64,000 nucleotides of DNA from the NCBI RefSeq assembly GCF_011039085.1, contig NZ_JAAKEI010000010.1, positions 1 through 64,000 of the forward strand, in the 5' to 3' direction. The translations under genes and the position numbers were made by a program. Position 1 is the stretch's first letter; each line of letters starts with the position of its first letter. Of the stretch, positions 44,892-62,704 are shown piece by piece. The notes beneath the pieces are model-generated. The model was not told where the DNA came from, made no database searches, and saw only the letters and a program-made list of their open reading frames with translations. The stretch is from Desulfovibrio sp. ZJ369. GTDB taxonomy: Bacteria; Desulfobacterota; Desulfovibrionia; Desulfovibrionales; Desulfovibrionaceae.

Positions 44892-44905
44892 AAAAGGAGT
44901 ACCGC

Positions 44906-45538
44906 ATGAAAAAGATAACGCGCATAGGCGTGGGCGGGCCCGTGGGTTCCGGTAAAACAGCGATTATTGAAGCGGTTACGCCGGTCTTGATCCGCAAGGG
45001 GATCAAGCCCCTGATCATCACCAACGACGTGGTGACCACCGAGGACGCCAAACATGTCCAGCGCGAGCTGGCCGGAGTGCTGGCAGCGGAAAAGATCGTG
45101 GGCGTGGAGACCGGCGCCTGCCCGCATACGGCCATCCGCGAGGATCCGAGCATGAATCTGGCGGCCGTGGAGGATCTGGAGCGCGCCTTCCCGGACAGCG
45201 ATCTCATTTTCATCGAAAGCGGCGGCGACAATCTGACCCTGACCTTCAGCCCGGCGCTGGCGGATTTTTTCATCTACGTCATCGACGTGGCCGCGGGCGA
45301 CAAAATTCCGCGCAAAAGCGGGCCCGGCGTCTGTCAGTCGGATATTCTGGTGATCAACAAAGAGGATCTGGCTCCTTATGTGGACGCCAGCCTGGAGGTT
45401 ATGGAGCGCGATTCGCGCCGGATGCGCGAAGGCAAGCCCTTTCTCTTCACCAACTGCAAGACCGGGAAAAACATTGAGGCGCTGGCGGAGATGATCATCC
45501 GCGACGCGCTCTTTGATTTCAAGCCCGCGGAACAATAG
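44906..45538 (+). CDS. ureG: Urease accessory GTPase UreG
   Basis: A 210-aa SIMIBI GTPase that powers nickel transfer to urease. P-loop [14 protein letters not shown] (~8-21), the metal-binding CPHTAIRED (~73-81) on which the nickel dimer forms, [13 protein letters not shown] (~99), and [10 protein letters not shown] (base recognition). Length and motifs are normal. A GGAG site precedes the ATG. The TAG stop is the edge of the next repeat module. Confidence 0.95.
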
Positions 45539-45584
45539 AGCGTTTTGCTATTGAAAATGGATATTTTCAATCAAAAAATACTCT
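45537..45584 (+). repeat. Repeat module between ureG and ureD
   Basis: AGAGCGTTTTGCTATTG...TATTTTCAATC..AAAAATACTCT, related to the right end of repeat B copy 1 (2370-2400). It supplies the ureG stop. Confidence 0.6.
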
Positions 45585-45598
45585 AGGGGAACGGTCGC

Positions 45599-46561
45599 AT
45601 GACCCAATGTGCGGACATCTCGCGCGTGCGGCGCGCGCGCGAAAACCTTGAACGGCTCGGACGCCAGGCGCCGGAATTGCGCGCTTTTCAGAACGAACCG
45701 GCCCAGATGCCCAGCGGCGCGGTGGGCAAGAACGGCTATCTGCGCCTGGAGTTCACGGCCCGCAACGGCCGCAGCGAACTGTCCTTCATGGATCGCCGCG
45801 TGCCGCTGCTGGCCCAGCGCGCGCTCTACTGGGACGAAGCCATGCCCCGGATGCCCTGCGTGTTCATCATTAGCACCACGGGCTGCATTCTTCAGGGCGA
45901 TCGCACGGCCCTGGAGATTGAGGTGGGCGAAAACGCCCAGGCCCATGTGACCACGCAGTCCGCCGGCAAGATCCACATGATGAACGCCAATTACGCCGCG
46001 CAGTGGCAGAATCTGGTGGTGGAAAAGGGCGGCTACCTGGAATACATGCCCGAACCCATGATCCCGCACCGCACCTCGCGTTTTTTTTCCCGCACGGACA
46101 TTTCCATTGCCGGGGGCGGCAGCCTGCTCTACGCCGAAATGCTGTTGCCCGGCCGCAAGCACCACCATCAGGACGAGCTCTTCGGCTATGAGCTCTATTC
46201 CTCTTCGGTGCAGGCCGTGCGCCGGGAAAGCGGGCAGCCGCTGTTCGCGGAAAAATTCATTCTCAGGCCCGGCGCCACGGATCTGGCGCGCACGGGCGTC
46301 ATGAACGGCTTTGAGATTTTCGGCAACGTCATTCTGCTCACGGAGCGGGACAAGGCCCTGCGCGTGCGCGAGGCCGCGGGCGCGGCTGTGGGTCCGGAGC
46401 TGGCGTACGGGGCCGACCTGCTGCCCCAGGACTGCGGCCTGATTTTCAAGGTGCTGGGCTTGCGCTCGGAAGCGGTGCGCGAGGCTATCCGCCAGTTCTG
46501 GCGCATCGCCCGCGGCACGGTGACCGGGCATGATCTGCCCGAAAAATTTTTGTGGCGCTGA
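45599..46561 (+). CDS. ureD: Urease accessory protein UreD (UreH)
   Basis: A 320-aa scaffold for nickel-insertion complex assembly with UreF. Conserved segments GCILQGDRTALEIEVGENA (~95-113), VTTQSAGKIHMMN (~118-130) and PHRTSRFFSRTDISI (~157) are typical. Its place after ureG, at the end of the maturation genes, is less usual than the ureD-first order but the set is complete. Start ATG at 45599 with GGGGAACG upstream. Confidence 0.92.
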   Translation: MTQCADISRVRRARENLERLGRQAPELRAFQNEPAQMPSGAVGKNGYLRLEFTARNGRSELSFMDRRVPLLAQRALYWDEAMPRMPCVFIISTTGCILQGDRTALEIEVGENAQAHVTTQSAGKIHMMNANYAAQWQNLVVEKGGYLEYMPEPMIPHRTSRFFSRTDISIAGGGSLLYAEMLLPGRKHHHQDELFGYELYSSSVQAVRRESGQPLFAEKFILRPGATDLARTGVMNGFEIFGNVILLTERDKALRVREAAGAAVGPELAYGADLLPQDCGLIFKVLGLRSEAVREAIRQFWRIARGTVTGHDLPEKFLWR

Positions 46562-46617
46562 CCGCGCCGCGGGCAAGGCCCGCCCGGTTGCAGCGCGCCG
46601 ATGCAACGCGGGCCTTG

Positions 46618-46675
46618 AGAGCACTTCAAACGTGAAATGCTCTCGCATGAGAGCATATTGCTTTTAAAACGCTCT
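46618..46675. repeat. Two tandem hairpins between ureD and the urea transporter gene
   Basis: AGAGCACTTCAAACG..GAAATGCTCT (46618-46643) and AGAGCATATTGC..TTTTAAAACGCTCT (46650-46675), two members of the family in a row inside the operon. Confidence 0.65.
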
Positions 46676-46704
46676 ATGCCAATCCCTGTGTCCTGGAGGT
46701 ATAT

Positions 46705-47730
46705 ATGACGGCAGACGCAACAAGCGCCCCCGCAGGGGGCTGGGCCGGACTTGCGGCCCGCAATCCCGCGCTGCATTTTATTGATATCTGCCTGCGCGGC
46801 GCAGGTCAGGTGATGTTTCAGAACAACGCGCTCACCGGCCTGCTTTTTCTGATCGGCATTTTCTGGGGCGCGTACCGGGCGCACATGCCCGCCGTGGCCT
46901 GGGGCGCGCTGGTCGGGGTTGCGGTCGGCACGTTGACCGCCTGTCTGCTCAGAGCGCCCAGAGCCAATATCAACATGGGGCTGCACGGCTACAACGGCAT
47001 CCTGGTGGGCTGCGCCCTGCCCACTTTTTTCGCGCCCACGCCCCTGCTCTGGGCCTACATCGTGGCCGGCGCGGTTTTTTCCACAATACTGATGCTGGCC
47101 ATTTCCAGCGTGCTGCGCACCTGGAAGGTTTCGGCCATGACCGGGCCGTTTGTGATCACCACCTGGTTTCTGATGCTGGCCGCCTATAATTTCGGCAACA
47201 TCCGCATCGACGGCCTGCCGCGCCCGTCCATCGCCGTGCAGCCGCCCCTGAGCGATCTCTTTGCCCTGGACTTGCGGCAGCTTGTGAAAGCGGCCTTTAC
47301 CGGCGTGTCCCAGGTGTTTCTGATCAACAACGTCGTTACCGGCGTGATCTTTCTCATCGGCCTGGCAGTGAGTTCCATCTGGGCTGCGGTCTTCGCCCTT
47401 GCCGGCTCCCTTCTGGCCGTGGGCACGGCTCTTCTGCTGGGCGGCGGCTCCACGGCTATTGTGGCCGGCCTGTTCCAGTTCAGCGCCGTGCTGACCGCCA
47501 TCGGCCTGAGTACAACCTTTTACAAGCCCGGCTGGCGGGTGATCCTGTACGCCTTCCTGGGCGTCATTTTCACGGTGGTGGCGCAGGGCGCGCTGAACGT
47601 GCTTCTGCATGTCTACGGCATTCCTACGCTCACCTTCCCCTTTGTCATCGCGGCCTGGATTTTCCTTCTGCCCAATATTGATCTGCATCCGGCCAGCCAC
47701 CAGAGCGAGCCGGCCAGGCCGGCCGTCTGA
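46705..47730 (+). CDS. Urea transporter (UT/SLC14 family)
   Basis: A 341-aa membrane channel for urea, homologous to the urea transporters of animals and to the crystallised dvUT of Desulfovibrio vulgaris. Two homologous halves of ~5 helices each are visible, each with the urea-binding loop motif: NINMGLHGYNGILVGCALP in the first half (~90-108), and a second-half equivalent with GVSQVFLINNVVTGVIFLIG (~210) and GLFQFSAVLTAIGLSTTF (~255). The NH2 terminus is short and cytosolic. Co-location with urease points to uptake of external urea. Confidence 0.9.
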   Translation: MTADATSAPAGGWAGLAARNPALHFIDICLRGAGQVMFQNNALTGLLFLIGIFWGAYRAHMPAVAWGALVGVAVGTLTACLLRAPRANINMGLHGYNGILVGCALPTFFAPTPLLWAYIVAGAVFSTILMLAISSVLRTWKVSAMTGPFVITTWFLMLAAYNFGNIRIDGLPRPSIAVQPPLSDLFALDLRQLVKAAFTGVSQVFLINNVVTGVIFLIGLAVSSIWAAVFALAGSLLAVGTALLLGGGSTAIVAGLFQFSAVLTAIGLSTTFYKPGWRVILYAFLGVIFTVVAQGALNVLLHVYGIPTLTFPFVIAAWIFLLPNIDLHPASHQSEPARPAV

Positions 47731-47740
47731 ATAGAAACGC

Positions 47741-47769
47741 GCGCGCCGGGCACAGGCCGGGCGCGCCAG
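47741..47769. repeat. GC-rich hairpin before amtB
   Basis: GCGCGCCGGGCAC...GCCGGGCGCGCC can fold into a strong stem between the urea transporter and amtB. It could limit read-through. Confidence 0.45.
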
Positions 47770-47783
47770 CAAGGAGTTTACCC

Positions 47784-48998
47784 ATGTATATTCTCAATAC
47801 CGGCGACACTGCTTTCGTGATGCTCTGCACCGCGCTGGTTCTGCTGATGACGCCGGCTCTGGCCCTGTTTTACGGCGGCCTTGTGCCCAGCAAAAACGTG
47901 TTGACCATCATGATGCAGAATTTCATCTCCATGGGGGTCGTTGCCCTGATCTGGATCTTCGGCGGCTTCAGTCTGGCTTTCGGGCCGGATCTGGGCGGCG
48001 TCATCGGCGACATCAGGTTCCATTTCGCTCTGGACGGCGTGGGAGCCGCACCAGGGGCGCACTACGCCCGCACGGTTCCCTTCATCCTCTTTTTCGCCTA
48101 CCAGATGATGTTCGCGGTCATCGCTCCGGCCCTGATCACCGGCGCCTTTGCCGGCCGCCTGAATTTCAAGGGCTACCTCGGCTTTCTGATCCTGTGGATG
48201 ATCCTCATCTATATTCCGGTCTGCCATTGGATCTGGGGCGGCGGCTTTCTGGCCCGCCTGGGCGTGGCCGACTTCGCCGGCGGCATCGTCATCCACGTCA
48301 GCGCCGGTTTTTCAGCTCTTGCCTCGGTGCTCTATCTGGGCCGGCGCGCGGGCATGGCTCCGGGCGCCAGAACCATCCCCAGCAATCTGCCCCTGGTGGC
48401 CGTGGGCGCGGGCCTGCTCTGGTTCGGCTGGTTCGGCTTTAACGCCGGCGGCGCTTACGCGGCCGACGCTCTGGCCTCCTACGCCTTTGTCAATACCACC
48501 ATTGCCGGTTCCATCGCCATGCTCGTCTGGCTGATTCTGGACTGGTCTTCCCGTCGCAAGCCTTCCTTTTCCGGCGTGCTGGTGGGCGCGGTGGCCGGCC
48601 TGGCCACCATCACGCCCTGCGCCGGCTATGTGGAGCCCTGGGCGGCCATTGTCATCGGCGCGGTGGGCTCGCTGATCTGCTATTACGCCAAGCGCGTGCA
48701 GGATCGCTTCGCCTTTGACGACGCCCTGGAAGTCTGGCGGGCGCACGGCATGGGCGGCCTGACCGGCGCTCTGCTGCTGGGCCTGCTGGCCAGCCCGCAC
48801 ATCAATGCGGTAGGCGCGAGCGCGCGCCAGTTCTGGGTGCAGATCTGCGGCGTGGTGATCGTGGCCGTGTACGCCTTTGTTCTGACCCTGATCATTCTCT
48901 GGCTCCTCAGCCGGATCTGCAACATCCGCGTGAGCAGGGAAGAGGAAGAGCGCGGCCTGGACGAATCGCTGTACGGCGAAGACGCCTACCGGCTGTAA
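47784..48998 (+). CDS. amtB: Ammonium transporter AmtB
   Basis: A 404-aa 11-helix ammonium channel. The family shows LFYGGLVPSKNVL (~28-40), DFAGGIVIHVSAGFSALASV (~156-175; includes the pore twin-His first His), GWFGFNAGGA (~215) and the second His in RAHGMGGLTGALLLG (~315). It has no signal sequence; the N-terminus is hydrophobic. Located after urease and the urea transporter, it could retain or export ammonium formed from urea. No GlnK gene is adjacent, which is unusual because amtB is often paired with glnK. Confidence 0.93.
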   Translation: MYILNTGDTAFVMLCTALVLLMTPALALFYGGLVPSKNVLTIMMQNFISMGVVALIWIFGGFSLAFGPDLGGVIGDIRFHFALDGVGAAPGAHYARTVPFILFFAYQMMFAVIAPALITGAFAGRLNFKGYLGFLILWMILIYIPVCHWIWGGGFLARLGVADFAGGIVIHVSAGFSALASVLYLGRRAGMAPGARTIPSNLPLVAVGAGLLWFGWFGFNAGGAYAADALASYAFVNTTIAGSIAMLVWLILDWSSRRKPSFSGVLVGAVAGLATITPCAGYVEPWAAIVIGAVGSLICYYAKRVQDRFAFDDALEVWRAHGMGGLTGALLLGLLASPHINAVGASARQFWVQICGVVIVAVYAFVLTLIILWLLSRICNIRVSREEEERGLDESLYGEDAYRL

Positions 48999-50850: not shown

Positions 50851-51280
50851 AAAAACAAGATATTTCAGTCTCTTATATGCGTGCTCCCTCCCCGGGCGTG
50901 AAAGGCGTCCCTGAGTTTTCCCTAAAAAAGACGGGTAATTACGCACGTTGGGGCGGCATCTTTCGTGCGGGCATCGCGTGAAAAAGGAACTTTCACAGGA
51001 TATGTCCCAGAAAGGCGCGGTTTGTGCTCTCAAACGGGAAAATGTGCCCCGCCACAGCCCCCGGAGGGGGAGGGCGGCTTTTTTTGATCTAAAAAAGTTA
51101 ATAATACCCCTAAGTTATATTCTGAGGCAAAAAAGCCGTTTTCTTTTTCACTTGACAGTCTTATATAAGACATATTACATATATCTCACAATGAGAGGGA
51201 CGCCGCGCCGGACAGGGAGGGCGCGTCGTCCTGTTGCGTCAGATGAGCCGTATCATCCATCTCATCCAAGGAGAGCCTCC
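50851..51280. other. Upstream region of the sulfolactate transporter operon
   Basis: Contains AT-rich promoter DNA with a 14-bp palindrome (listed) and no gene. An in-frame extension of the following gene exists up to 50948 but lacks a signal peptide and ribosome-binding site, so it is rejected. Confidence 0.6.
51152..51180 (+). promoter_or_regulatory. Promoter with GTCTTATATAAGAC operator (tctC)
   Basis: TTGACA at 51152-51157 is followed at once by the perfect palindrome GTCTTATATAAGAC (51158-51171). A TTACAT -10-like box lies 17 bases after the -35 element. The same arrangement precedes suyA. The palindrome has GTCT...AGAC arms as in HutC/FarR-type GntR operators, so the GntR regulator of this cluster is the probable ligand. 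Confidence 0.7.
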
Positions 51281-52237
51281 ATGAAACTGGTGTCACGCCT
51301 TTTTGCTGGCTTCTGCCTCGCCGTCGCGCTGGCGGCCCCCGCCGCGGCTGCCTACCCCGAAAAGCCGATCAATATGGTCATCGCTTTCACCGCCGGCGGT
51401 TCGAGCGACGTACAGGCCCGGATCATGCAAAAATACTGGAACAAATACGCCCCGGAGCCGTGGGTCTTCGTCTACAAGCCGGGCGCGGGCGGGATCATCG
51501 GCTTTACCGAAATCGCCAAGGCCCGGCCCGACGGCTACACCATCGGCGGCCTGAACGTCCCGCACCTCATCGTGCAGTCTCTGGCCCAGAACGCCCAGTA
51601 TACCGCCGACAGCTTCAAGTACATCTGTCAGGTGGTCAACGATCCCCAGTGCGTGGCCGTGCGCAAGGACAGCCCCTTCAAGACCACGCAGGAAATCGTC
51701 GATTACGCCCGGAAGAACCCCGGCAAGCTCCGCGTCGGCCTCGTCGGGCCGCTGTCCGGGCATCATCTGATGTTCCTCAACTGGCAGAAGCAGTTCCCCG
51801 GCTCCAGGCTCACCCACGTCTTCTACAAGGGCGCGGCCGACCAGAACGCGGCCCTGCTCGGCGGCGAGATTGACTTGATTTTCGGCAACATCAACGACGT
51901 GATGCGCTCCATCGACGAATTCCGCGTGCTCAACGTGGCCGCCGAAAAGCGCAACGAGTTCCTGCCCGACGTGCCGACCCTGCGCGAGGCGGGCATCGAC
52001 ATGGTCTCCGACATCCGCCGTTGCTTCGCAGCCCCCAAGGACATCAAGCCCGAGCAGCTTGAAACCCTGCGCGCCATCTTCAAGCAGATTTGCGACGACC
52101 CCGACTACGTCGCGGACATGAAGAAGGCCGGACAGCCCCACGAATACATGGACGGCGAAGCCTTCGCCGCCTACATCGAAAGCCAGACGGAGCACGCCCG
52201 CAAGGCCCTTTCCGAAGCCGGGCTGCTGAAGAAATAG
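51281..52237 (+). CDS. TctC-type substrate-binding protein, probable sulfolactate binder
   Basis: A 318-aa periplasmic protein of the tripartite tricarboxylate transporter (TTT) family. Signal peptide MKLVSRLFAGFCLAVALAAP with cleavage near AAA, then YPEKPINMVIAFTAGGSSDV, the TctC start with Gly/Ser ligand loop, VYKPGAGGIIGFTEIAKARP (~68-87) and FLPDVPTLREAGI. A GGAG site precedes the ATG at 51281. It is the first gene of the sulfolactate cluster, in the position of slcH in other sulfolactate operons, so 3-sulfolactate is the likely ligand; this is inferred from context. Confidence 0.85.
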   Translation: MKLVSRLFAGFCLAVALAAPAAAAYPEKPINMVIAFTAGGSSDVQARIMQKYWNKYAPEPWVFVYKPGAGGIIGFTEIAKARPDGYTIGGLNVPHLIVQSLAQNAQYTADSFKYICQVVNDPQCVAVRKDSPFKTTQEIVDYARKNPGKLRVGLVGPLSGHHLMFLNWQKQFPGSRLTHVFYKGAADQNAALLGGEIDLIFGNINDVMRSIDEFRVLNVAAEKRNEFLPDVPTLREAGIDMVSDIRRCFAAPKDIKPEQLETLRAIFKQICDDPDYVADMKKAGQPHEYMDGEAFAAYIESQTEHARKALSEAGLLKK

Positions 52238-52300
52238 CCCCTGGCCCGCGCCCCCTTCGCGGCGGGGCGCGGGCCCCCAATCCCGAGAAGGAGGTTTCGC

Positions 52301-54277
52301 ATGACAGAATTCCTCTTGCCTGCCTTTCTCCATCTTCTCGAACCCCTGAACATCATCCTGATGCTCGCCGGGCTGACCGGGGGCATCGTCATCGGCGCGC
52401 TCCCCGGCCTTTCGGCCACAATGGGCGTCGCCCTCATGGTCCCGGCCACCTTCGCCATGAACCCCACCAGCGGGCTGATCATGCTCGGCGCGATCTACGC
52501 CGGGGCCATTTACGGCGGGGCCAACTCCGCCATCCTCATCTGCACGCCCGGCACGCCCTCCTCCGTGGCCACCACCTTCGACGGCTGGCCCCTGTGCCAG
52601 AAGGGGCGGGCGGACATCGGGCTCTATTCCTCGCTTCTGTCCTCGGCCTTCGGCGGCGTCGTGGGCACGCTCTTCCTGCTCTGCCTCGCCGCCTCGCTCG
52701 CCCGTTTCGCCATGCGCTTCGGCGGGCCCGAGAGCTTCTGGCTTTGCCTTTTCGGGCTCTCCACCATCGCGGTGATGACCCCGGACAACATGGGCAAGGG
52801 CATCCTCTCCGGCGCGGCGGGCATCCTCGTGTCCACCATCGGGCTCGACCCCAACACGGGCGTGCCCCGTTTCACCTTTGGCATCTACGACCTCTTGCAG
52901 GGCGTCTCCGTCATCCCCTGCATGATCGGCCTCTTCTCCTTCTCGCAGGTGCTCTACCTCATCGGCACGGACAAGACCTTCATCGCGGAATACCACCCGC
53001 ACAAGGGCGCGTTCCGCAAGGTCTTTTCCTACCTCGCCAAGCACTGCAAGACCATCCTCGTGCGCTCCTCGATCCTCGGGACGTGGATCGGGATGCTCCC
53101 CGGCGCGGGCGGCGAGATCGCCTCGATCATCGCCTACAACGAGTCCAAGCGCTGGGACAAGGATCCCTCCCGCTACGGCAAGGGCAGCATTGAGGGCGTG
53201 GCCGCTTCCGAAAGCGCGAACAACGCGGTCATCGGCGGCTCGCTCATCCCCATGCTCACCCTCGGCATCCCCGGCAGCGCGGTGGCGGCGGTCATCCTCG
53301 GCTCGCTCATGGCCCACGGCATCCAGCCGGGTTTCAAGATATTCACGGCCTCGGGCGAACTGGCCTATACCTTCATCGTCTCGCAGTTCGCCGTGAATTT
53401 GCTCATGATCCCGGTGGGCTTCGTGCTCTGCCAGTGCATGGCGCGGCTTTTGAGCATCCGGCTGACGCTTGTGGCCATCGGCATCGTGGTGCTGGCCTAT
53501 ATCGGAGCCTACGCCATCAGCAACAGCCTCGTGGAGATCTGGGTGGTCTTCGCCTTCGGGCTCATCGGCTTCTTCGGGGGAAAGGTGGGCATGGATACCG
53601 GGGCGATGGCGCTTGGCGTCATCCTCGGCCCCATGATTGAAGAGAACCTCGGCAAGAGCGTGGACCTGTCCCGCTCGCTCGACGGGGGGCTCGCGGCGGC
53701 CATGTTTGCTGGCTCGATCAACAAGGTGCTCATCGCGGCACTGATCCTCTCGCTGGCCACGCCTTTCCTCCTGAAGCTGCGCAACCGCAAGAACGCCGCG
53801 CTGCTTCCCGAAGGTCCCCGTCCCGCGTGGACGGCGGACTTCTTTGCCGGGATCGGCTTCATCGCCATCGCCGCCGCCTTCTTCGTGCAGTACGAGGAGC
53901 TTGAGGGCGTGAGCCGGGTCTTCCCGGAAGTGCTGACCACGCTCATCGGGACCGGAGGCGCGTATTTCATGGCCAAGGGCCTGTGGCGTCGGCGCGGGGC
54001 CGCCCCCGCCGGGGACGCCGAGCCCGTGGCGTGGAACAAGGTCGCCCTCATCTGCATGGCCTCCCTCGCCTATGCGGTGGCCATGCCCATGCTCGGCTTT
54101 TTGACGGGGACGATGATCTTCATCGTCTGTTCGACCCTTCTCCTCGGGGACCGCAGCCGGGGATGGGGTCACCTTGCCCGCACGGCCCTCGTGTTCGGGG
54201 TGGGCTTCGGCCTGCTGGTCTGGGGCTGCTTCACGCAGCTTCTCAACGTCCCAGCGCCCACGGGCCTGTTCATCTGA
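52301..54277 (+). CDS. TctA-TctB fused TTT permease, probable sulfolactate importer
   Basis: A 658-aa membrane protein combining two subunits normally separate. Residues 1-~500 are TctA: FLHLLEPLNIILMLAGLTGG, the conserved GALPGLSATMGVALMVPATF (~31-50), GAIYGGANSAILICTPGTPS (~67-86) and GIPGSAVAAVILGSL (~322-336). Residues ~515-655 are the four-helix TctB-like domain (WTADFFAGIGFIAIAAAFFV). AGGAGG precedes the ATG. In characterised sulfolactate clusters the permease is slcF and slcG; this fused form is unusual. Leu codons are often CTC, unlike many neighbours. Confidence 0.85.
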   Translation: MTEFLLPAFLHLLEPLNIILMLAGLTGGIVIGALPGLSATMGVALMVPATFAMNPTSGLIMLGAIYAGAIYGGANSAILICTPGTPSSVATTFDGWPLCQKGRADIGLYSSLLSSAFGGVVGTLFLLCLAASLARFAMRFGGPESFWLCLFGLSTIAVMTPDNMGKGILSGAAGILVSTIGLDPNTGVPRFTFGIYDLLQGVSVIPCMIGLFSFSQVLYLIGTDKTFIAEYHPHKGAFRKVFSYLAKHCKTILVRSSILGTWIGMLPGAGGEIASIIAYNESKRWDKDPSRYGKGSIEGVAASESANNAVIGGSLIPMLTLGIPGSAVAAVILGSLMAHGIQPGFKIFTASGELAYTFIVSQFAVNLLMIPVGFVLCQCMARLLSIRLTLVAIGIVVLAYIGAYAISNSLVEIWVVFAFGLIGFFGGKVGMDTGAMALGVILGPMIEENLGKSVDLSRSLDGGLAAAMFAGSINKVLIAALILSLATPFLLKLRNRKNAALLPEGPRPAWTADFFAGIGFIAIAAAFFVQYEELEGVSRVFPEVLTTLIGTGGAYFMAKGLWRRRGAAPAGDAEPVAWNKVALICMASLAYAVAMPMLGFLTGTMIFIVCSTLLLGDRSRGWGHLARTALVFGVGFGLLVWGCFTQLLNVPAPTGLFI

Positions 54278-54325
54278 CCCTCAACCGCTTTCCACAGGCC
54301 CGGCCTCATTTGGTCATTTTTTTAG

Positions 54326-54355
54326 TTGACAGTCTTATATAAGACATAATACATA
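54326..54355 (+). promoter_or_regulatory. Promoter with GTCTTATATAAGAC operator (suyA)
   Basis: TTGACA at 54326-54331 and the perfect palindrome GTCTTATATAAGAC at 54332-54345, then ATACAT 17 bases from the -35 box. It is an exact twin of the sequence at 51152, so the transport genes and suyAB have separate but co-regulated promoters. Confidence 0.7.
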
Positions 54356-54386
54356 ACTTATGGAAACGAACTTCAAGGAGGCAACC

Positions 54387-54671
54387 ATGTCAGTGCAATT
54401 TCTGGTTCATCAAGACGGCGACAGCGTCGGCGTCGTCACCGTCGAAGGCGTGCAGGCGGGTCAGGAACTGACCGGCTGGGTTATGAAGGAAGACAAGACC
54501 CTTACGTTCAAGGTCCTTGATGATATTCCCATAGGTCACAAGATCGCTCTCAAGGATTTGAATGTCGGCGATACCGTCTTCAAGTACGGCACCGATATCG
54601 GGAAGGTAGTCAAACCCATCCGTCAGGGCGAACATCTCCATGTCCACAACGTCAAGACCAAAAGGTGGTAG
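54387..54671 (+). CDS. suyA: (2R)-sulfolactate sulfo-lyase subunit alpha (SuyA)
   Basis: A 94-aa SAF-like small subunit of the enzyme that splits (R)-3-sulfolactate into pyruvate and sulfite. It matches the SuyA/UxaA N-terminal-type family: [17 protein letters not shown], then [20 protein letters not shown] (~61-80) and [11 protein letters not shown] at the end. The ATG at 54387 follows AAGGAGG. The SuyB ATG lies six bases after its stop. Confidence 0.88.
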
Positions 54672-54676
54672 GTCAC

Positions 54677-55837
54677 ATGCAAAAGACATTCTTTGGTTAT
54701 CGCCGCGATAATGGTCGCGTGGGCATTCGTAATCATGTGCTGATTCTGCCCCTCGACGACCTTTCCCAGCCCGCCTGCAACGCCGTTGCCAACAACATCG
54801 GCGGCGCCATTGCCATTCAGCATCCCTATGGCCGTCTCCAGTTCGGGGCCGACCTTGACCTGCATTTCCGCACCCTGATCGGCGCGGGCAGCAACCCGAA
54901 CGTCGCCGCCGTCATCGTCATCGGCATTGAGGAAAAGTGGACTCAGGACGTGGTGGACGGCATTGCCAAGACCGGCAAGCCCGTCGTCGGCTTCGGCATC
55001 GAGCAGCACGGCCAGATCGACACCATTGCCCGCGCTTCCCGCAAGGCGAAGGAATTTGTGCAGTACGCTTCCGCCCTCCAGAAAGTGGAATGCCCCATCT
55101 CCGACCTGTGGGTTTCCTGCAAATGCGGCGAGTCCGACACCACCTCCGGTTTGGCCTCCTGCCCGACCGTGGGCAACGCGTTCGACAAGCTGTACGAGGA
55201 AGGCTGCACTCTGGTGTTCGGTGAAACCACGGAACTCACCGGCGGCGAGCATCTGGTGAAGGCCCGTTGCATCAATGATCAGGTCCGCAGCGAATTCACC
55301 GCGTATTTTGACCGCTACGCCAAGGTTATTGACGATCACAAGACCTCGGACCTTTCCGACTCCCAGCCGACCAAGGGCAACATCGAAGGCGGCCTGACCA
55401 CCATCGAAGAAAAGGCCCTCGGCAACATTCAGAAGATCGGCACCAAGGCGCCTGTCGTCGGCACTCTGGACAAGGCCGTGACGCCTACCGGCCCGGGCTT
55501 GTGGTTCATGGATTCCTCCTCGGCCGCGGCTGAAATGATCACCCTCGTGGCCGCCGCCGGTTATGTGGTGCACTTCTTCCCCACCGGGCAGGGCAACATC
55601 ATCGGCAACCCGATCGTGCCCGTCATCAAGCTGTCCGCCAACCCGCGCACCATCCGCACCATGTCCGAACACATGGACGTGGACGTGTCCGGCATCCTGC
55701 GACGCGAAATGAATCTTGATCAGGCCGGCGACAAGCTGCTCGACATGATGTTCCAGACCATCGCGGGTCGTCTGACCGCCGCCGAAGCTCTGAAGCAGAA
55801 CCAGTTCGTTATGACCCGTCTGTACGAAAGCGCCTAG
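54677..55837 (+). CDS. suyB: (2R)-sulfolactate sulfo-lyase subunit beta (SuyB)
   Basis: A 386-aa catalytic large subunit of the altronate dehydratase-like UxaA superfamily that acts with SuyA. The N-terminus [20 protein letters not shown] is the family hallmark, then Cys-containing [20 protein letters not shown] (~149-168) and [12 protein letters not shown], with a Cys-based metal site expected. The product sulfite would feed the dissimilatory sulfite reductase of such bacteria. ATG at 54677 is used because GGTAGGT precedes it. Its stop TAG is the edge of composite repeat A. UxaA homologues also act on altronate, but the neighbours (TTT transporter, sulfolactate dehydrogenases) favour SuyB. 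Confidence 0.88.
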
Positions 55838-55974
55838 AGCATTTTCTCTTTGAAAATGCTCTGCTGACGCGAAAGCGGCAGCCGCCGCAACGCGGCGCAC
55901 ATTCAGGAGAAAACCGCGTTTTTCGCCTGAATGCCACCTTTGACTTTCATAAAAAGTCAAAGATAATCTGCTCT
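55836..55974 (+). repeat. Composite palindromic repeat A, copy 4
   Basis: Nearly identical to 5208-5346, with small changes (GCACATTCAGG for GTACATTCAGG; AGATAATC for GGTAATC). It supplies the suyB stop codon. Confidence 0.9.
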
Positions 55975-56259
55975 AAGCTGCGCCTGCGTGCGGATTGAAA
56001 AAGGAGGCGGGGGGGCGACCTCCCGCCTTTTTTTCCGGCTTCGCGCTGGGCTTGAAAAAAATCCTGTCTTTGCGGATGGGAGGCATGGCGTCTGCCCCGG
56101 CGCGGTCCTGCCGCGCGGCCTGGCGGAAAAGGAAGCGGCGTGCGCCGCAAGGCCGCAAGGCGGGGCTTCGGCGCAAGGGAGCGGGAGGGCGCGCCCCCCG
56201 GCAGGGCCGGGGAAGCCTTCCCCACGGCAGGCCCCGCCCCGGCTGGGGCACGGGCGGCG
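55975..56259. other. GC-rich region between convergent suyB and gntR genes
   Basis: About 285 bp with the suyAB terminator (56005-56034) and further GC-rich inverted repeats before the regulator stop. No gene is supported. Confidence 0.5.
56005..56034 (+). terminator. Intrinsic terminator after suyAB
   Basis: AGGCGGG (56005-56011) pairs with CCCGCCT (56022-56028), followed by seven T. It ends the suyAB transcript before the opposed regulator gene. Confidence 0.85.
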
Positions 56260-56988
56260 TCAGCGCAGTTCGGCGCGGTAGACGTGATGTGACGTGTTGA
56301 TGTGGCTGATGCGGAATTCGACGGGCTGTTCCTGAAGGTCGAAGGAGGTCCGGGTCACCAGCAGCAGCGGGTGGCTGCGCTCCACATTCAGTCGCTTGAT
56401 GTCCGCGGGATCGGGCAGCGTAACTTCGATCTGCTCGGTGGCGCGGGCCACGGTGACGCCGAAATGAAGCTGGTAATGCTCATACAGGGTGTTGGGCACC
56501 TTGTCGGACTCGAAGCTGAAGTCCGGGAAGCGCGCGGTCGAGAGCGTGACCCGCTCGTTGATGACCGGGCAGTCGTCGAGCATGCGCACGCGGTCGATGT
56601 GGATGACCTTCACCCCCGGCGCGAGGTTGAGGGCGGCGCGTTCGGCCTCGGAAGGCTGGCCGAGGCGCAGGCCGTAGATTTGCGACAGCGGATAGACGCG
56701 CTTGCCGTGCTTGTCGCTGAACAGGAAGAAGGGAAAGAGGTCGCTGTCCTCGTCAAGGACGGCCACTGCGGTGCCCTTGCCCTGATAGCGCACCAGCCGC
56801 TTTTCGCGGGTGAGCGCGTTGAGGGCCTTGCGCAGCGTGCCTTGGCTGACCCCGTATTCCTTGGCCAGCGCGATTTCACTGGGAAGGAAGCTTCCCGGCC
56901 CCCATTCTCCGGCAATGATGCGGTCGAGGATGGCTTTCTTCACTTGCTCATAGAGGGGGGCGAACGTCAGTTTCGGTGATGGGGTCAT
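56260..56988 (-). CDS. GntR/HutC-family transcriptional regulator of the sulfolactate cluster
   Basis: A 242-aa repressor with an N-terminal winged helix (~8-75; LYEQVKKAILDRIIAGEWGP, LPSEIALAKEYGVSQGTLRK) and a C-terminal UTRA ligand domain (~90-240; LVTRTSFDLQEQPVEF). It is divergent from slcC with a 106-bp gap. HutC-type regulators often bind GTCT...AGAC palindromes, and such sites precede tctC and suyA, so it probably represses all units and is released by sulfolactate or a related metabolite. That assignment is inference from position. Confidence 0.85.
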   Translation of the reverse strand: MTPSPKLTFAPLYEQVKKAILDRIIAGEWGPGSFLPSEIALAKEYGVSQGTLRKALNALTREKRLVRYQGKGTAVAVLDEDSDLFPFFLFSDKHGKRVYPLSQIYGLRLGQPSEAERAALNLAPGVKVIHIDRVRMLDDCPVINERVTLSTARFPDFSFESDKVPNTLYEHYQLHFGVTVARATEQIEVTLPDPADIKRLNVERSHPLLLVTRTSFDLQEQPVEFRISHINTSHHVYRAELR

Positions 56989-57019
56989 GGTTCCTCCGGG
57001 GACTCTTTGGCATGTTCTT

Positions 57020-57040
57020 ATCTTGTATAATATAGAAGAT
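57020..57040 (+). promoter_or_regulatory. Degenerate operator and -10 between gntR and slcC
   Basis: ATCTTGTATAATATAGAAG and AT: a near-palindrome (ATCTT/AAGAT arms) overlapping TATAAT at 57026-57031. It resembles the two perfect palindromes but has changed spacing, which could give weaker binding. Confidence 0.45.
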
Positions 57041-57094
57041 CAAACTCTTCGGCATCCCCGTTTCTTCGTGGGGCGCGCATGAGGGGAACACGTT

Positions 57095-58024
57095 ATGGCA
57101 GAAATCGTCATTTCCGAATTCATGGACGGGGCCGCCGTCTCCGAGCTGGCCGCTTCGTTTGATGTCCTCTACGACAAAACGCTCGTGGACCGCCCCGAGG
57201 CGTTGGCCGAGGCCGCCGCCGGGTGCCGGGCGCTTATCGTGCGCAACCGCACGCAGGTGCGCGGCGCGCTTTTGGACGGCGCGAATTTGCGCGTGGTCGG
57301 GCGTCTTGGCGTGGGCCTCGACAACATCGACTGCGCGGCCTGCCGCGAGCGCGGCATCGCCGTCATCCCGGCTACCGGGGCCAACAACGTGGCCGTGGCC
57401 GAATATGTGCTCGCCGGGCTGCTCATGCTCCTGCGCGGCTCGTACGGCGCAAGCGCCTCCGTCGCCGCCGGGGAATGGCCCCGTGAACGTCTGGCAGGCC
57501 GCGAAATCGCCGGGAAAACCCTCGGCCTCGTGGGTTTCGGGGGCATCGCCCGGGAAGTGGCCGTGCGCGCCATCGCCTGCGGGATGCGGGTCATCGCCCA
57601 TGATCCCTTCCTGCCCGCCGACGCGCCGGAATGGGAACGCTGCGGCGTGCGCCCCGCCGCGCTTGAGGATTTGTTCGCCGAGGCCGACGCCGTGAGCCTG
57701 CATGTACCGCTCACGCCCGATACCCGCCACCTCGTCAATGCCGCGCGGCTGGACATGATGAAGCCCGGCGCGGTCTTCGTCAACGCCGCGCGCGGCGGCG
57801 TGGCCGACGAGGCCGCCCTTGCCGATGCGCTGGCGTCCGGCAGGCTGGCCGGGGCGCTTGTGGACGTCTTCGAGAAGGAGCCGCTCAAGGCCGGGTCGCC
57901 GCTGGCGCAGGCCCCGAACTGCATCCTCACCCCGCACATCGCGGGTGTCACGCAGGAATCCAACGTCCGCGTGAGTTCCCTGGTGGCCCGCAAGGTGGCC
58001 GAAGCCCTGCGGGGTGACGCATGA
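57095..58024 (+). CDS. slcC: (S)-sulfolactate dehydrogenase SlcC-type
   Basis: A 309-aa D-2-hydroxyacid dehydrogenase fold enzyme. The NAD-binding motif GLVGFGGIA (~148-156), the Arg in NAARGGVAD (~232), the Glu in VFEKEPL (~258) and the catalytic His in TPHIAGVT (~280) are all present. In sulfolactate degraders the gene in this place (slcC) oxidises (S)-sulfolactate to sulfopyruvate. It overlaps comC by 4 bp (ATGA). Function as a sulfolactate enzyme comes from its neighbours; sequence alone shows only the family. Confidence 0.8.
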   Translation: MAEIVISEFMDGAAVSELAASFDVLYDKTLVDRPEALAEAAAGCRALIVRNRTQVRGALLDGANLRVVGRLGVGLDNIDCAACRERGIAVIPATGANNVAVAEYVLAGLLMLLRGSYGASASVAAGEWPRERLAGREIAGKTLGLVGFGGIAREVAVRAIACGMRVIAHDPFLPADAPEWERCGVRPAALEDLFAEADAVSLHVPLTPDTRHLVNAARLDMMKPGAVFVNAARGGVADEAALADALASGRLAGALVDVFEKEPLKAGSPLAQAPNCILTPHIAGVTQESNVRVSSLVARKVAEALRGDA

Positions 58025-59019
58025 TCCTCGACGCCGGACAATTGCGCGATCTGGGCATGGCGGTCTTTGTGGCGGCGGGCGTGCCCGAGGCGGCGGCTTC
58101 AAGCGTGGTCGACGCGCTGGTGCTGGCCGAACTCGACGGCCTGCCCTCGCACGGTTTTTCCCGCATCCCCTTCTATACGGATCAGGCCCTCTCCGGCAAG
58201 GTCAATGCCGCCGCCGTCCCGGAGGTTTCCACGCCCGCGCCCGCGTCCGTTCTGGTGGACGCCAGGAACGGCTTTGCGTTCCCGGCCATCGACGCCGGGT
58301 TTGCGCGCGCCGTGCCGCTGGCCAAACGCTATGGCGTGGCCGTGCTCGGCGTGACCCGCTCGCACCACTGCGGCGTGGTCGGCCTCTATGCCGAACGGCT
58401 GGCCGGGGAAGGGCTCGTTTCGCTCATCTTCTCCAATACCCCGGCGGCAATGGCCCCGTGGGGTGGCTCGCGGGCTTCCTTCGGCACCAATCCGCTGGCC
58501 TTCGGCTGCCCGCGCGAGGGGCGGCATCCGCTGGTGATCGACCTGTCCCTGAGCAAGGTGGCCCGGGGCAAGATCATGGCCGCCAAGCAGCGCGGCGAGT
58601 CCATCCCCGAGGGCTGGGCGCTGGACGCGCAGGGCCGCCCGGCCACCGATCCGGCGGTGGCGCTCGGCGGGACCATGATCCCCGTGGGCGACGCCAAGGG
58701 CTCGGCGCTGGCCCTCATGGTGGAAATCCTCGCCGCCGCGCTCCCCGGGGCCAACTACGCCTTTGAGGCGTCGTCCTTCTTCGAGGCCGAAGGCCCCGCG
58801 CCCGGCATCGGCCAGTCCTTCATCCTTATTGATCCCGCGCCCCTCAATCCCGGCTTTGCGCCGCGCCTTGAGGCCTTGTGCGGCCAGATGCTCGCGCAGG
58901 AGGGCGTGCGCCTTCCCGGAGAACGGCGTTTCGCCCTTCGCGAGCGGAACAGGCAGGCGGGCGTCGACATCCCGGACGCCCTTTACGTCGACTTGCGCAA
59001 GCGGGCGGGGCTTGCGTAA
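58021..59019 (+). CDS. comC: (R)-sulfolactate dehydrogenase ComC-type (Ldh2/MDH family)
   Basis: A 332-aa NAD(P)-dependent dehydrogenase of the malate/L-lactate dehydrogenase (Ldh2) family. Marks: LPSHGFSRIPFYTDQ (~41-55), RSHHCGVVGLYAERLA (~114-129), GTNPLAFGCPRE (~153-164) and the Lys in KIMAAKQRGESIPEGWALD (~184-202). ComC makes (R)-sulfolactate from sulfopyruvate. With SlcC it converts the (S) form into the (R) form, the SuyAB substrate, via sulfopyruvate. The start overlaps the slcC stop. Confidence 0.8.
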   Translation: MILDAGQLRDLGMAVFVAAGVPEAAASSVVDALVLAELDGLPSHGFSRIPFYTDQALSGKVNAAAVPEVSTPAPASVLVDARNGFAFPAIDAGFARAVPLAKRYGVAVLGVTRSHHCGVVGLYAERLAGEGLVSLIFSNTPAAMAPWGGSRASFGTNPLAFGCPREGRHPLVIDLSLSKVARGKIMAAKQRGESIPEGWALDAQGRPATDPAVALGGTMIPVGDAKGSALALMVEILAAALPGANYAFEASSFFEAEGPAPGIGQSFILIDPAPLNPGFAPRLEALCGQMLAQEGVRLPGERRFALRERNRQAGVDIPDALYVDLRKRAGLA

Positions 59020-59160: not shown

Positions 59161-59227
59161 CTCCTTTTGATTTGTCATACTGGAGACGCGGTCTGGCAAC
59201 TGCATTCCGACGACAAATCAAAAGGAG
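59161..59227 (+). promoter_or_regulatory. IS200 5' leader stem that masks the transposase ribosome-binding site
   Basis: CTCCTTTTGATTTGTC (59161-59176) is the exact complement of GACAAATCAAAAGGAG (59212-59227), and the second arm contains the AAAGGAGG ribosome-binding site. This matches the translation-blocking leader known in IS200. Confidence 0.75.
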
Positions 59228-59233
59228 GTCACA

Positions 59234-59323
59234 ATGAGTGACACAAAGAGTTTAGCCCATACGAAATGGAATTGTAAATATCATGTCGTTTTGGAGACAT
59301 TCACCTTTTCGATGATTTCCTAA
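59234..59323 (+). pseudogene. Truncated IS200/IS605-family transposase (N-terminal remnant)
   Basis: Encodes MSDTKSLAHTKWNCKYHVV, the typical IS200 TnpA start, then runs out of homology at about 59291 (IS200 continues with VFAPKYRRK) and stops at 59321. The rest of the gene, including the HUH and Tyr residues, is missing. The DNA beyond contains an IS1-like gene in opposite orientation, which may have caused the deletion. Confidence 0.8.
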
Positions 59324-59398: not shown

Positions 59399-60110
59399 TC
59401 ACTTTAGGAGTGATAAAAGCTCATCAATACTTCCAGTGACCCTGACCCTGGCAAACAAAGCCAAACTCATGTTCACCATTTCCTGAGAGCGACTGACAAC
59501 ACAAGTACGACGATGGAATTGCGCCAGCCAATGCCTTTGCAAAAAAGTATTCTGCTCCATCTGGCAGGTATTGGCTTTTCCCTGGCGCAGCGATCGGAAA
59601 CCTATCACTTCGGCAGAGCATACATATCTATTCGTAACAATACGTTTTTCTTTCAGAATACTGATTTTTTACTGAGTTTCAGGAGGGTTTTGGCACTGCG
59701 ATCACCACATATCCACCCGATGAAAGCTCTGCTTGTATGGTCAATAACTTTCCATATCCAAATTGCTTGTGTTTTTTAGCAATAAAATGGTGCATTTCAT
59801 CAATTTCAATTTCTTCAAATTGAGCTTTTTGAAAGAATTCTTCATGTTCTTTTGCGTACTTATAATAATCATCTTTAACCCATCGCAGTATTGTTTGAGT
59901 GCTCACACCAATAATTTTACCAGTCATGCGCATAGAAATACCAGACAGATAAAACAATAATGCTAATATCTTATCTCGTTCCGGTCTTCCCCTTGGGGTC
60001 ATTTTTGTGAACTGATAACAACATTCCTTACATTTATAGCGTTGTTTGCCATGAAGAAAACCATCTTTGACACATGCGCTTGATCCACACTTTATACATG
60101 TTGGCTCCAT
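59399..60110 (-). pseudogene. Frame-disrupted IS1-family transposase
   Basis: Two open pieces together resemble the transposase at 187-894: 60110-59679 (zinc ribbon MEPTCIKCGSSACVKDGF, CKECC; helix-turn-helix; EIEIDEMHHFI) and 59608-59399 (HWLAQFHRRTCVVSRSQEMV and an end). Between them the frame breaks and much of the core, including TDGW-like residues, is lost or scrambled. It is a different IS1 lineage from the one at the left edge. AAGGAG precedes the ATG. Confidence 0.8.
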
Positions 60111-60314: not shown

Positions 60315-61547
60315 CTACACATTCAGATTCAGTCCGGACAGCATGGACAGGTTGCCGTTAGAATACATGCCGAAATAGGAACTGGCATCGTTGGAGCCGG
60401 CCCACCACGCGGCCATGGATTCGATCTGGATGCGTTTGCGCATCTCGTTGGGAGCAATCTGCATGGCCTTGCGGGCATCCTCGATGCCGGACAGGACATC
60501 GATCTGCAGGAATTTTTTGACCAGAGCGGGATTTTCATCAAAGAATTGCTGGATCTTGTCGCGATCCGCGCTGTCGCTGATGATTGACACGCTGCCGTCA
60601 GGATTTATTTGAAGAGAAAAATCGGTGTTCGGGTCAATGCCCAGGCTATCCATGCCGGTTTGGATTTTTTTGCCCAGGTCGTTTTCCTTGTCCAGCACGT
60701 TCTGGATGTCCTTGAGATCCGAGTTGTTGACCGTAATCCGCACCGTGCCTTCGGCCCCCAGCTTCAGGCTGACAGCCGAGGCATCCACATCCCGCTTTTC
60801 CAGCTGCTCTTTGACCGCGTCGGCCAGATCGGGATTTTCCGACAGCCATTGATTGATCGCCTCCGCCTTTTCATGCTCGCCGCTGACCACGAGATTGCCC
60901 CCGGCATCGAACGCAAAAGCAATGCCCGCGCTCAGATCCACGCCCATAGTGTTCAGGGCCTTGCGCACATCCTCGCTCAGCTCCGCGTCGCCATCCAAAA
61001 CTTTTTGCATAGTGTCATTGGTCGCATTGACCACGCTCAATTTGCCGGATGCGCCGATGCGCATTTCAATCCTGGCGTTGGCGTCGATGCCTGCGTCTGC
61101 AAGATTTTTACGAAGATCCTTGCCCAGGGAAGGGTTGGCGTCCAGCCAGGCCTGCACGGTTTTTTTATCCGAGGCGTTGTCGCTGTTGGCCGTGATCGAG
61201 CCATCTTTGTTGAGAGTGAAGGTCAGGGCGCCCGGATCCTTGACGCCTGTCCGGGCAAGCCCGTCTTTCACGCCTTGTGTGAATTCGTTTTTGAGCTGTT
61301 CCCTGTACTTGCTGATCTGGCTGAACGTCACCCGGCTGTCGCTGGAAAGCCCCATGGCGTCCATGGCGTACCTGGTCAGCTCCACCATGCTGGAAAGCTG
61401 GCTGCTCATGGAGGCATTCTTGCCGAACAGACTGCTCAGGCCGCTTGCCGAAGAGCTTTTGGCAGAACCGGCGGAAGTATTTTTCAGCTGCTGGTTCTGC
61501 CACTGAAAGATCATATTATTATAATTGCTTATGCCTGATACGCTCAT
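60315..61547 (-). CDS. Hypothetical protein with ~50-residue tandem repeats
   Basis: A 410-aa protein I do not recognise. The N-terminus (MSVSGISNYNNMIFQWQNQQ) has no signal peptide and looks like the starts of some flagellar or filament-associated proteins. A Ser-rich linker and helices follow to ~110. From ~110 to ~345 there are four imperfect repeats, each with a strand pair holding a Gly turn (FTLNKDGSITANSD, FAFDAGGNLVVSGE, LKLGAEGTVRITVN, LQINPDGSVSIISD) and a helical part with a W/F-L-x-x-NP-x-L pattern (AWLDANPSLGKDL, QWLSENPDLADAV, QFFDENPALVKKF). The repeat unit suggests a modular structural or adhesive role. Upstream neighbours give no hint. Confidence 0.75.
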   Translation of the reverse strand: MSVSGISNYNNMIFQWQNQQLKNTSAGSAKSSSASGLSSLFGKNASMSSQLSSMVELTRYAMDAMGLSSDSRVTFSQISKYREQLKNEFTQGVKDGLARTGVKDPGALTFTLNKDGSITANSDNASDKKTVQAWLDANPSLGKDLRKNLADAGIDANARIEMRIGASGKLSVVNATNDTMQKVLDGDAELSEDVRKALNTMGVDLSAGIAFAFDAGGNLVVSGEHEKAEAINQWLSENPDLADAVKEQLEKRDVDASAVSLKLGAEGTVRITVNNSDLKDIQNVLDKENDLGKKIQTGMDSLGIDPNTDFSLQINPDGSVSIISDSADRDKIQQFFDENPALVKKFLQIDVLSGIEDARKAMQIAPNEMRKRIQIESMAAWWAGSNDASSYFGMYSNGNLSMLSGLNLNV

Positions 61548-61705
61548 ATTTCCCCCGGCAGATTTTACCGTTGCAGGGCACAGGGACCTTTTTCACGGCA
61601 AAATGCAAAGATCAGACCAGGCCTGTCCGACGCTTTCCGCGCACGCGCTGCGCAACGGGCTTTGAAAAGATGGACAGAAGACTCTAAATAAGCTAGTCAT
61701 GACAC

Positions 61706-62704
61706 ATGGCAGTACATTCTTCCATGCTGGAGACAGTGGAGTTTGACGACCCGGCCCTTGCCAACCAGCTTTTCGGCCCTCACAATGCGCATCTTGATTT
61801 GTTGGCCGCGGCCAGCGGCGCGCGGATCAGCACCCGCGGCACAAGCCTCTTTGTTGAAAGCCCGGATCAGGACGCGCGGCAGGCTCTGTGCAGTGCCTTC
61901 CTGCAGTTGTATGAATTGCTGCGCGGCGGCCTCGCCCTGAGCCAGCAGGATATTGCCCGCGCCTATGCCATGCTCAGGGCCGACCCGGGGCTGAATCTCG
62001 CGCAGATCTACCGGGACGCGGTTTTTGTGAACACGCCGCGCAAAACCGTGGCTGCGCGCAATGTGGCCCAGAAGACATATCTGGATCTTCTGCGGCGCAA
62101 TGAGCTGGTCTTTGCCGTGGGCCCGGCGGGCACGGGCAAAACCTATTTGGCTGTGGCAATGGCGCTGTCCATGTTGCAGCAGCACCGGGTCAAGCGCATT
62201 GTGCTTACCCGGCCCGCGGTTGAGGCGGGGGAGCGGCTGGGCTTTCTGCCCGGCGATCTGGCCGAAAAGGTCAATCCGTATCTGCGGCCGCTTTACGACG
62301 CCCTGCATGATATGATGCCCCAGCCCAAGGTGGCTTCCATGCTGGAAGTGGGTTCCATTGAAGTGGCTCCTCTGGCCTTCATGCGCGGCCGCACGCTCAA
62401 TGACGCCTTTATTATTCTGGACGAAGCGCAGAATACCACCCAGGAACAGATGAAAATGTTCCTGACCCGCATGGGCTTCGGCTCGCGCATGGCCGTGACC
62501 GGCGATACGACCCAGATTGACCTGCCGGTGCAGCCCGGCTGCGTGCGCCCCCGTTCCGGTTTGATCCATGCCCTCAGTATCCTGCATAACGTACCCGGCA
62601 TTGCCGTGCATCATTTCAGCAAGGCCGACGTCGTGCGTCACCCCCTTGTAGGAGCCATTGTAAGCGCATATGACCATGCAGAAAAAAACAGCGCGACCGT
62701 CTAG
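61706..62704 (+). CDS. ybeZ: PhoH/YbeZ-family ATPase
   Basis: A 332-aa P-loop ATPase of the PhoH family, linked to RNA metabolism and ribosome maturation. A KH-like N-terminal part (~1-110) precedes the ATPase: Walker A GPAGTGKTYLAVAMAL (~138-153), RPAVEAGERLGFLPGDL (~170-186), Walker B DAFIILDEAQNTTQEQ (~234-249), and TGDTTQIDLP. The next gene starts inside it, 35 bp before its end. The order phoH-pgpH (with ybeY usually next) is common in bacteria. Confidence 0.92.
   Translation: MAVHSSMLETVEFDDPALANQLFGPHNAHLDLLAAASGARISTRGTSLFVESPDQDARQALCSAFLQLYELLRGGLALSQQDIARAYAMLRADPGLNLAQIYRDAVFVNTPRKTVAARNVAQKTYLDLLRRNELVFAVGPAGTGKTYLAVAMALSMLQQHRVKRIVLTRPAVEAGERLGFLPGDLAEKVNPYLRPLYDALHDMMPQPKVASMLEVGSIEVAPLAFMRGRTLNDAFIILDEAQNTTQEQMKMFLTRMGFGSRMAVTGDTTQIDLPVQPGCVRPRSGLIHALSILHNVPGIAVHHFSKADVVRHPLVGAIVSAYDHAEKNSATV

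Follow-up and report, generated by a model that had tools for sequence, protein, structure and literature searches.

A probable inducible island for sulfolactate respiration in a sulfate reducer of the Desulfovibrio type

Gene content of the island and its host

Sulfolactate, which arises when the plant sulfosugar sulfoquinovose is degraded, is one of the routes by which gut and environmental bacteria form hydrogen sulfide (H2S). A stretch of 64,000 nucleotides from Desulfovibrio sp. ZJ369 (positions 1 to 64,000 of contig NZ_JAAKEI010000010.1, called the window below) contained, between positions 51152 and 59019, seven genes that an original prediction, made from the sequence without database searches, had read as an island for sulfolactate catabolism. 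Domain searches confirmed the presence of all seven at the positions named, and their products fell in the families named: TctC, a fused TctA-TctB, SuyA, SuyB, a GntR regulator, and two dehydrogenases. It is very likely that this is an inducible sulfolactate-respiration island in a sulfate reducer of the Desulfovibrio type. Gene content and family membership were observed, sat, aprA, dsrA, and a dsrB-like gene were found in the genome, and an operator sequence showed a recurring pattern; the substrates of the enzymes and of the transporter are presumed from published relatives and from context.

A TTGACA hexamer and, directly after it, the palindrome GTCTTATATAAGAC (51152..51171, plus strand) lie approximately 110 bp upstream of the start of tctC. 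Position 51152, previously given as the start of the island, is the first base of this hexamer; it is not the coding start of tctC, which is at 51281. The tctC gene (51281..52237, plus strand) encodes the periplasmic binding component, of the slcH type, of a tripartite tricarboxylate transporter (TTT; PF03401, 141.7 bits). The membrane subunits, of the slcFG type, are encoded by a tctA-tctB fusion (52301..54277, plus strand), in which TctA and TctB lie in a single 658-aa frame (PF01970 at residues 18-434 and PF07331 at residues 515-653). A second TTGACA followed by GTCTTATATAAGAC (54326..54345, plus strand) was located approximately 40 bp upstream of suyA (54387..54671, plus strand), which is predicted to encode the small subunit of (R)-sulfolactate sulfo-lyase. 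The ATG start of suyA at 54387 is preceded by AAGGAGG, and its 94-residue product contains a SAF domain (22.9 bits, cut-off 21). The predicted catalytic subunit, encoded by suyB (54677..55837, plus strand), is a GD_AH protein of 386 residues (PF20629, 274.4 bits; PF04295, 115.9 bits).

The regulator gene gntR is encoded on the minus strand (56260..56988). Its product, with GntR-type helix-turn-helix (HTH) and UTRA domains and the recognition helix VSQGTLRKA, is proposed to be a sulfolactate-responsive repressor. Divergent from gntR are two plus-strand dehydrogenase genes that overlap by four bases. These are an slcC-type D-2-hydroxyacid dehydrogenase (2-Hacid_dh, 57095..58024), proposed to be an (S)-sulfolactate dehydrogenase, and a comC-type Ldh2 dehydrogenase (Ldh_2, 58021..59019), proposed to be an (R)-sulfolactate dehydrogenase. 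The names SlcC and ComC are used here for proteins that, by context, are proposed to work like their namesakes.

The identity of SuyB was analyzed in 199 sampled genomes of the host's family, with matches collected to E 1e-50. Sixty of the 199 genomes had a SuyB match. Matches at 66-100% identity were held by 45 of them, the remaining matches were 32-39% identical, and nothing fell between the two groups. The SuyB of the window sits in the 66-100% group, apart from UxaA/GarD-type dehydratases, and the host genome has no other PF04295 match. Grouping with the altronate dehydratases, which the original prediction had itself named as the outcome that would count against it, did not occur in these genomes. 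A small SAF-domain SuyA is encoded beside the GD_AH-family SuyB as a separate gene. On these sequence comparisons, SuyB is a member of the sulfolactate lyase group.

The host genome (2,883,226 bases in 108 contigs) contained dsrA (642.4 bits, cut-off 392.85) and an adjoining second match (85.4 bits) that is consistent with dsrB. It also contained sat, which scored 376.1 bits (cut-off 322.95), and aprA, which scored 1171.3 bits (cut-off 641.75), so that, judged by its genes, the host is a sulfate reducer rather than a sulfite-only specialist. The earlier description of the host as sulfite-respiring agrees with dsrA, a dissimilatory sulfite reductase gene, and its dsrB-like neighbor, but a sulfite-only specialism like that of Bilophila, marked by the lack of sulfate activation genes, is contradicted by sat and aprA, both of which were found in the host genome. 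The predicted combination of an uptake system, a dehydrogenase pair, and a sulfo-lyase with a genome encoding dsrA and its dsrB-like neighbor was borne out, and the overall interpretation was in this way partly supported. The single glycyl radical enzyme of the host was of the HpsG type (NCBIfam NF048011, (2S)-3-sulfopropanediol dehydratase, 1557 bits, cut-off 1000).

The operator and the recognition helix of the regulator

With up to three mismatches allowed, the window contained just two matches to GTCTTATATAAGAC, each of them exact, and none of 100 shuffles gave two. In the whole 2.88-Mb genome, with up to one mismatch, the palindrome was again found only at these two island sites. A 12-base core of GTCTTATATAAGAC, TCTTATATAAGA, was trimmed before other loci were inspected. 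The genome has two exact copies of this core and no copy with one mismatch, and both exact copies directly follow TTGACA, upstream of tctC and of suyA. A degenerate operator, TCTTGTATAATA, with two mismatches (57021..57032, no strand assigned), lies in the divergent gntR-slcC spacer. This third operator-like site is weak (22 two-mismatch sites genome-wide, 107 for the reversed control); 22 such sites in 2.88 Mb predict approximately 0.0008 in the 106-bp spacer.

Eighty named SuyB loci, to which the window SuyB was 74-80% identical, were kept out of 358 confirmed candidates. Two of these had no suyA match and three had fewer than 150 bases upstream; L063 was dropped from the count. Among the 27 loci with a GntR match within 4 kb, the core was found within 400 bp upstream of suyA exactly in 11 and with one mismatch in one, and at the other 15 it had three or more mismatches. 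Sorting by recognition helix covered 29 loci, among them L019 and L067, where the GntR is encoded at a distance of 8-11 kb. All 12 loci with a VSQGT helix had TCTTATATAAGA upstream of suyA (11 exact, one with one mismatch), and these span Desulfovibrionaceae and Gammaproteobacteria. Where I, V, or M takes the place of Q, TCATNTAGNTGA or its complement was found in 16 of 16 loci, exact in 12 and with one mismatch in four, and TCTTATATAAGA had at least three mismatches in every one of the 16. The single VSHGT locus carries TCTTGCATAAGA.

The operator was also searched for in 24 whole genomes. The 11 genomes that had this GntR and an exact site contained 19 exact operators, 15 of which were upstream of suyA or tctC, and the reversed control gave none in them. 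In the twelve same-genus genomes without a neighboring GntR there was one exact site in all (in G162), as there was one for the reversed control (in G126). The genome of L031, a locus with a one-mismatch site, had no exact site. A Taurinivorans-like genome has a second exact operator (L158 position 10493, L006 position 11626) some 0.5 kb beyond suyB, and the adjoining gene may also belong to the regulon.

One of the genomes searched, G039 (one contig, 2,172,708 bases, approximately 44% guanine plus cytosine (GC) around the cluster), is probably Taurinivorans muris. It contained tctC-tctAB-slcC-comC, gntR, an HpsN-like gene, DctP, a fused DctQM, and suyAB, arranged as in published T. muris LT0009; HpsN, DctP, and DctQM were recognized by eye. 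The G039 GntR is encoded between the two clusters and is 54% identical to that of the window. The operator was found approximately 40 bases upstream of tctC (slcH) and again approximately 70 bases upstream of suyA, and a third copy was inside a frame resembling miaA. Both T. muris clusters are reported to be up-regulated on sulfolactate (PMC10507020). The position of the G039 operators within clusters published as sulfolactate-induced gives the regulator reading its strongest experimental backing, which is of an indirect kind.

Both a conserved operator at the target promoters and the HTH and UTRA domains that characterize GntR/HutC repressors were found. We infer from sequence that the window GntR is the repressor of the island. 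More broadly, this GntR/UTRA protein is likely to be a dedicated sulfolactate-responsive repressor, using TCTTATATAAGA from Desulfovibrionaceae to Gammaproteobacteria and TCATNTAGNTGA in Betaproteobacteria, according to whether the helix residue is Q or I/V/M. If so, it would provide a marker of sulfolactate-inducible desulfonation that can be read from genomes, as well as a ready-made sulfolactate sensor. The conserved operator also offers a simple test of induction of the module and of which sulfonate is sensed.

The regulator-operator pair may be new. No report of a sulfolactate GntR/UTRA regulator with its operator was found in the open-licence literature searched, and the words GntR, repressor, and operator are absent from the main text of the T. 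muris paper (PMC10507020). PMC6018796 mentions a suyR gene with reference to Denger and Cook 2010, and PMC11382572 names a regulator HpsR in the Cupriavidus hps-suyAB cluster; either might correspond to the island GntR.

The proposed pathway and its alternatives

In the proposed pathway, the TctC-TctAB transporter would import 3-sulfolactate. SlcC would oxidize (S)-sulfolactate to sulfopyruvate and ComC would reduce sulfopyruvate to (R)-sulfolactate, so that both enantiomers would reach SuyAB. As published relatives and the context suggest, SuyAB would cleave (R)-sulfolactate to pyruvate and sulfite. The pyruvate would supply electrons and carbon, and the sulfite would be reduced by dissimilatory sulfite reductase to sulfide, which would be released. 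Bound at TCTTATATAAGA just after TTGACA, the GntR/UTRA protein would repress the tctC and suyA units and probably would also control gntR and slcC-comC, until the binding of sulfolactate or sulfopyruvate to its UTRA domain released it from the operator. We infer the identity of the operator-binding protein, the effector, and the direction of control.

Several results weigh against this reading or parts of it. At the 48 loci without a nearby GntR match, the core was exact in one (L080, where the stretch begins approximately 425 bases upstream of suyA), had one mismatch in one (L017), and had two mismatches in five. In the host genome, the core with up to two mismatches was found at 24 places, three of them in the island (the third between gntR and slcC), against 107 for the reversed control, which is no enrichment. 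Four of the 19 exact operators were not upstream of suyA or tctC: the one in a coding frame in G039, one in G101 that follows suyB by approximately 0.5 kb, and a single site in each of G125 and G251. One locus with a VSQGT helix, L059, also had a one-mismatch match to TCATNTAGNTGA, and the TCATNTAGNTGA pattern was written after those sequences were seen. The GntR tree suggests one switch on the betaproteobacterial branch, and because a single switch there is possible, the 28 loci do not amount to as many independent tests, and the correlation between operator and helix is suggestive only. No consensus sigma-70 promoter passed a promoter scan at either operator, and therefore only the TTGACA hexamer is claimed. 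ComC scored 192.5 bits against NF040650 (L-sulfolactate dehydrogenase, cut-off 500), a model whose coverage may be limited to a single branch of the family, while in the NCBIfam scan SlcC passed no named cut-off and matched no sulfolactate model, so the substrates assigned to both rest on context and relatives. The reading for this organism is built on its sequence and on published relatives.

It is very improbable that SuyAB and the dehydrogenases act on another 2-hydroxy or sugar acid, of the altronate or galactarate type, and that the island serves ordinary sugar-acid catabolism. Galactarate dehydratase was the only NCBIfam match of SuyA and SuyB, and among solved structures, sequence comparison linked SuyB only to the galactarate dehydratase GarD (6u7l). 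However, these NCBIfam matches (34 and 141.9 bits) were far under the cut-off of 730.85, SuyB shared no more than 32-39% identity with the family's second PF04295-type group, and it was 74-80% identical to proteins of the 80 loci, whose fetched stretches held an slcC-like match in 17 cases and a comC-like match in 23. The palindrome might instead be the site of some other regulator, with the role of GntR unrelated, and L017 and L018, which have no nearby GntR match, do carry TCTTGCATAAGA upstream of suyA (L017 also TCTTATATAATA). This is quite unlikely, as the palindrome tracks the residue of the GntR recognition helix across the 29 loci, and exact copies are absent from 11 of the 12 same-genus genomes without a GntR match near suyAB on the fetched stretch.

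A further possibility is that the island mainly serves sulfolactate formed inside the cell from 2,3-dihydroxypropane-1-sulfonate (DHPS) or cysteate, rather than imported sulfolactate. Desulfovibrio sp. DF1 makes sulfolactate from DHPS before SuyAB acts (PMC6278857). The host too has a DHPS enzyme, of the HpsG type, and in 11 of the 12 other same-genus genomes with SuyB, slcC and comC were absent from the fetched stretch. We consider this unlikely, however: the island includes an uptake system, preceded by the operator that also precedes suyAB, together with the two dehydrogenases required for the other enantiomer, and direct cleavage of DHPS by HpsG does not pass through sulfolactate. Neither a DHPS dehydrogenase nor a sulfolactaldehyde dehydrogenase was among the seven island genes; HpsN, DhpA, and SlaB were not searched for elsewhere in the genome.

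Related systems and the surroundings of the island

Respiration of sulfolactate through SlcC, ComC, and SuyAB is already known in gut relatives, and the window adds a member. The feeding of Dsr by SlcC-ComC-SuyAB was published for T. muris (PMC10507020), and in Bilophila wadsworthia 3.1.6 SuyAB was induced on sulfolactate with lactate as donor (PMC8667426). The suggestion that sulfolactate would be an added source of H2S was therefore not new, since both organisms are already published as respiring it, and the island belongs to a known kind. T. muris has the same enzymes and TTT-type uptake, with the same operator upstream of tctC and suyA in G039, but the window island lacks hpsN and a tripartite ATP-independent periplasmic transporter, has suyAB between tctAB and gntR, and shares its genome with sat and aprA. 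The module of uptake, racemization, and cleavage known from the specialist T. muris can thus also occur alongside genes for sulfate reduction. B. wadsworthia resembles the proposal for the window in its SuyAB-based sulfolactate respiration; the main text of PMC8667426, which does not name SlcC or ComC, describes Bilophila as sulfite-reducing, unlike the window host with its sat and aprA. SuyB in sulfate reducers was already noted in 2018. Desulfovibrio sp. DF1 converts DHPS to sulfolactate and then to pyruvate and sulfite, and its recombinant SuyAB was assayed (PMC6278857). As proposed for the window, this is a SuyAB in a Desulfovibrio, feeding sulfite respiration; DF1 makes its sulfolactate through DhpA and SlaB, whereas the window has an uptake and racemization island.

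The two-dehydrogenase racemization and SuyAB of Chromohalobacter salexigens and Paracoccus (PMC10507020, PMC12421959) are like those proposed for the window, and the difference lies in the fate of the sulfite, which in these aerobes is not the respiration proposed here (TauE export in P. wurundjeri). The lack of a sulfite exporter had been predicted to set the island apart from aerobic degraders. No PF01925 (TauE) gene was found on the island's contig, and six were found on other contigs of the host genome. The contrast with aerobes was not borne out among the loci sampled: a TauE-like ORF near suyAB was found in 0 of 22 Desulfovibrionales/Thermodesulfobacteriota loci and 1 of 22 other loci, so a missing exporter is uninformative as a mark of respiration. 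This count covered the 44 of 80 loci with full flanks (36 were dropped) and used a home-made profile of six sequences with modest sensitivity. In aerobic P. wurundjeri the TauE gene itself is in another cluster (PMC12421959).

The adjacent SlcC-/ComC-type pair was 65-67% identical to the pairs in L022 and L027 and 50% identical to that in G039. The order tctAB-suyA-suyB-gntR(-)-slcC-comC was common to the window and L022, a Mailhella metagenome-assembled genome (MAG); L027, a short contig without a tctAB match, had the same order from suyA onward. A different order, suyA-suyB-tctC-tctAB-slcC-comC, was found in L011, L012, L015, and L032. SuyB was present in 13 of the 16 same-genus genomes of the 199-genome sample, the host included, and the host shares its genus code with G162 and G176. 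On the fetched stretches of the twelve others, GntR was found in none, slcC with comC in one, and tctAB in four.

Horizontal transfer of the island is possible. Its gene order resembles the Mailhella MAG rather than its genus mates, and the SuyB and GntR trees lean the same way. In a quick SuyB tree of 94 rows, the window, on a long branch, joined two Mailhella-type (L022 and L027) and two Taurinivorans-like rows with a Shimodaira-Hasegawa-like approximate likelihood ratio support of 94, not starred. An approximately unbiased test did not reject placing SuyB with twelve Desulfovibrio rows, seven of them same-genus (p 0.31), and the comC and slcC trees disagreed. An empty island site was not found: in L163 and L164, the genes beside orf410 differ from the window's left flank. 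Elsewhere in the tree, the SuyB of L029, a Halanaerobiaceae (Bacillota) MAG, fell inside the Desulfovibrionales branch, indicating transfer or mis-binning. Two suyB copies with near-equal scores were found in two Desulfovibrionaceae, 8.7 kb apart in G183:C3 and 2.4 kb apart in G100:C9.

A 22-base repeat resembling repetitive extragenic palindromic elements, AGAGCAGATTANCTTTGACTTT, in places forming a hairpin, was found at window positions 50802, 50829, 55953, 5325, 12166, and 24471, with one copy behind suyB. With up to one mismatch it matched 107 times in the 2.88-Mb genome (57 + 50 by strand; reversed control 0), and it did not occur in the stretches fetched from other genomes, each of which covers a small part of its genome. 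Mobile-element remnants lie right after comC (59161-59300 and 59679-60110), where GC drops to 0.42-0.44. They include a 16-base inverted repeat with the beginning of a short IS200-like frame, and a shortened IS1-family transposase (83.8 bits, cut-off 100). To the left of the island is a urease cluster (41367-48998) with ureC-, ureF-, and ureD-like genes recognized by eye, a urea-transporter-like gene, and an ammonium transporter (TIGR00836). To the right (60315-62704), orf410, which had no Pfam or NCBIfam match, is divergent from phoH; 11 of 14 same-genus stretches (L127-L140) have both genes, as does L163.

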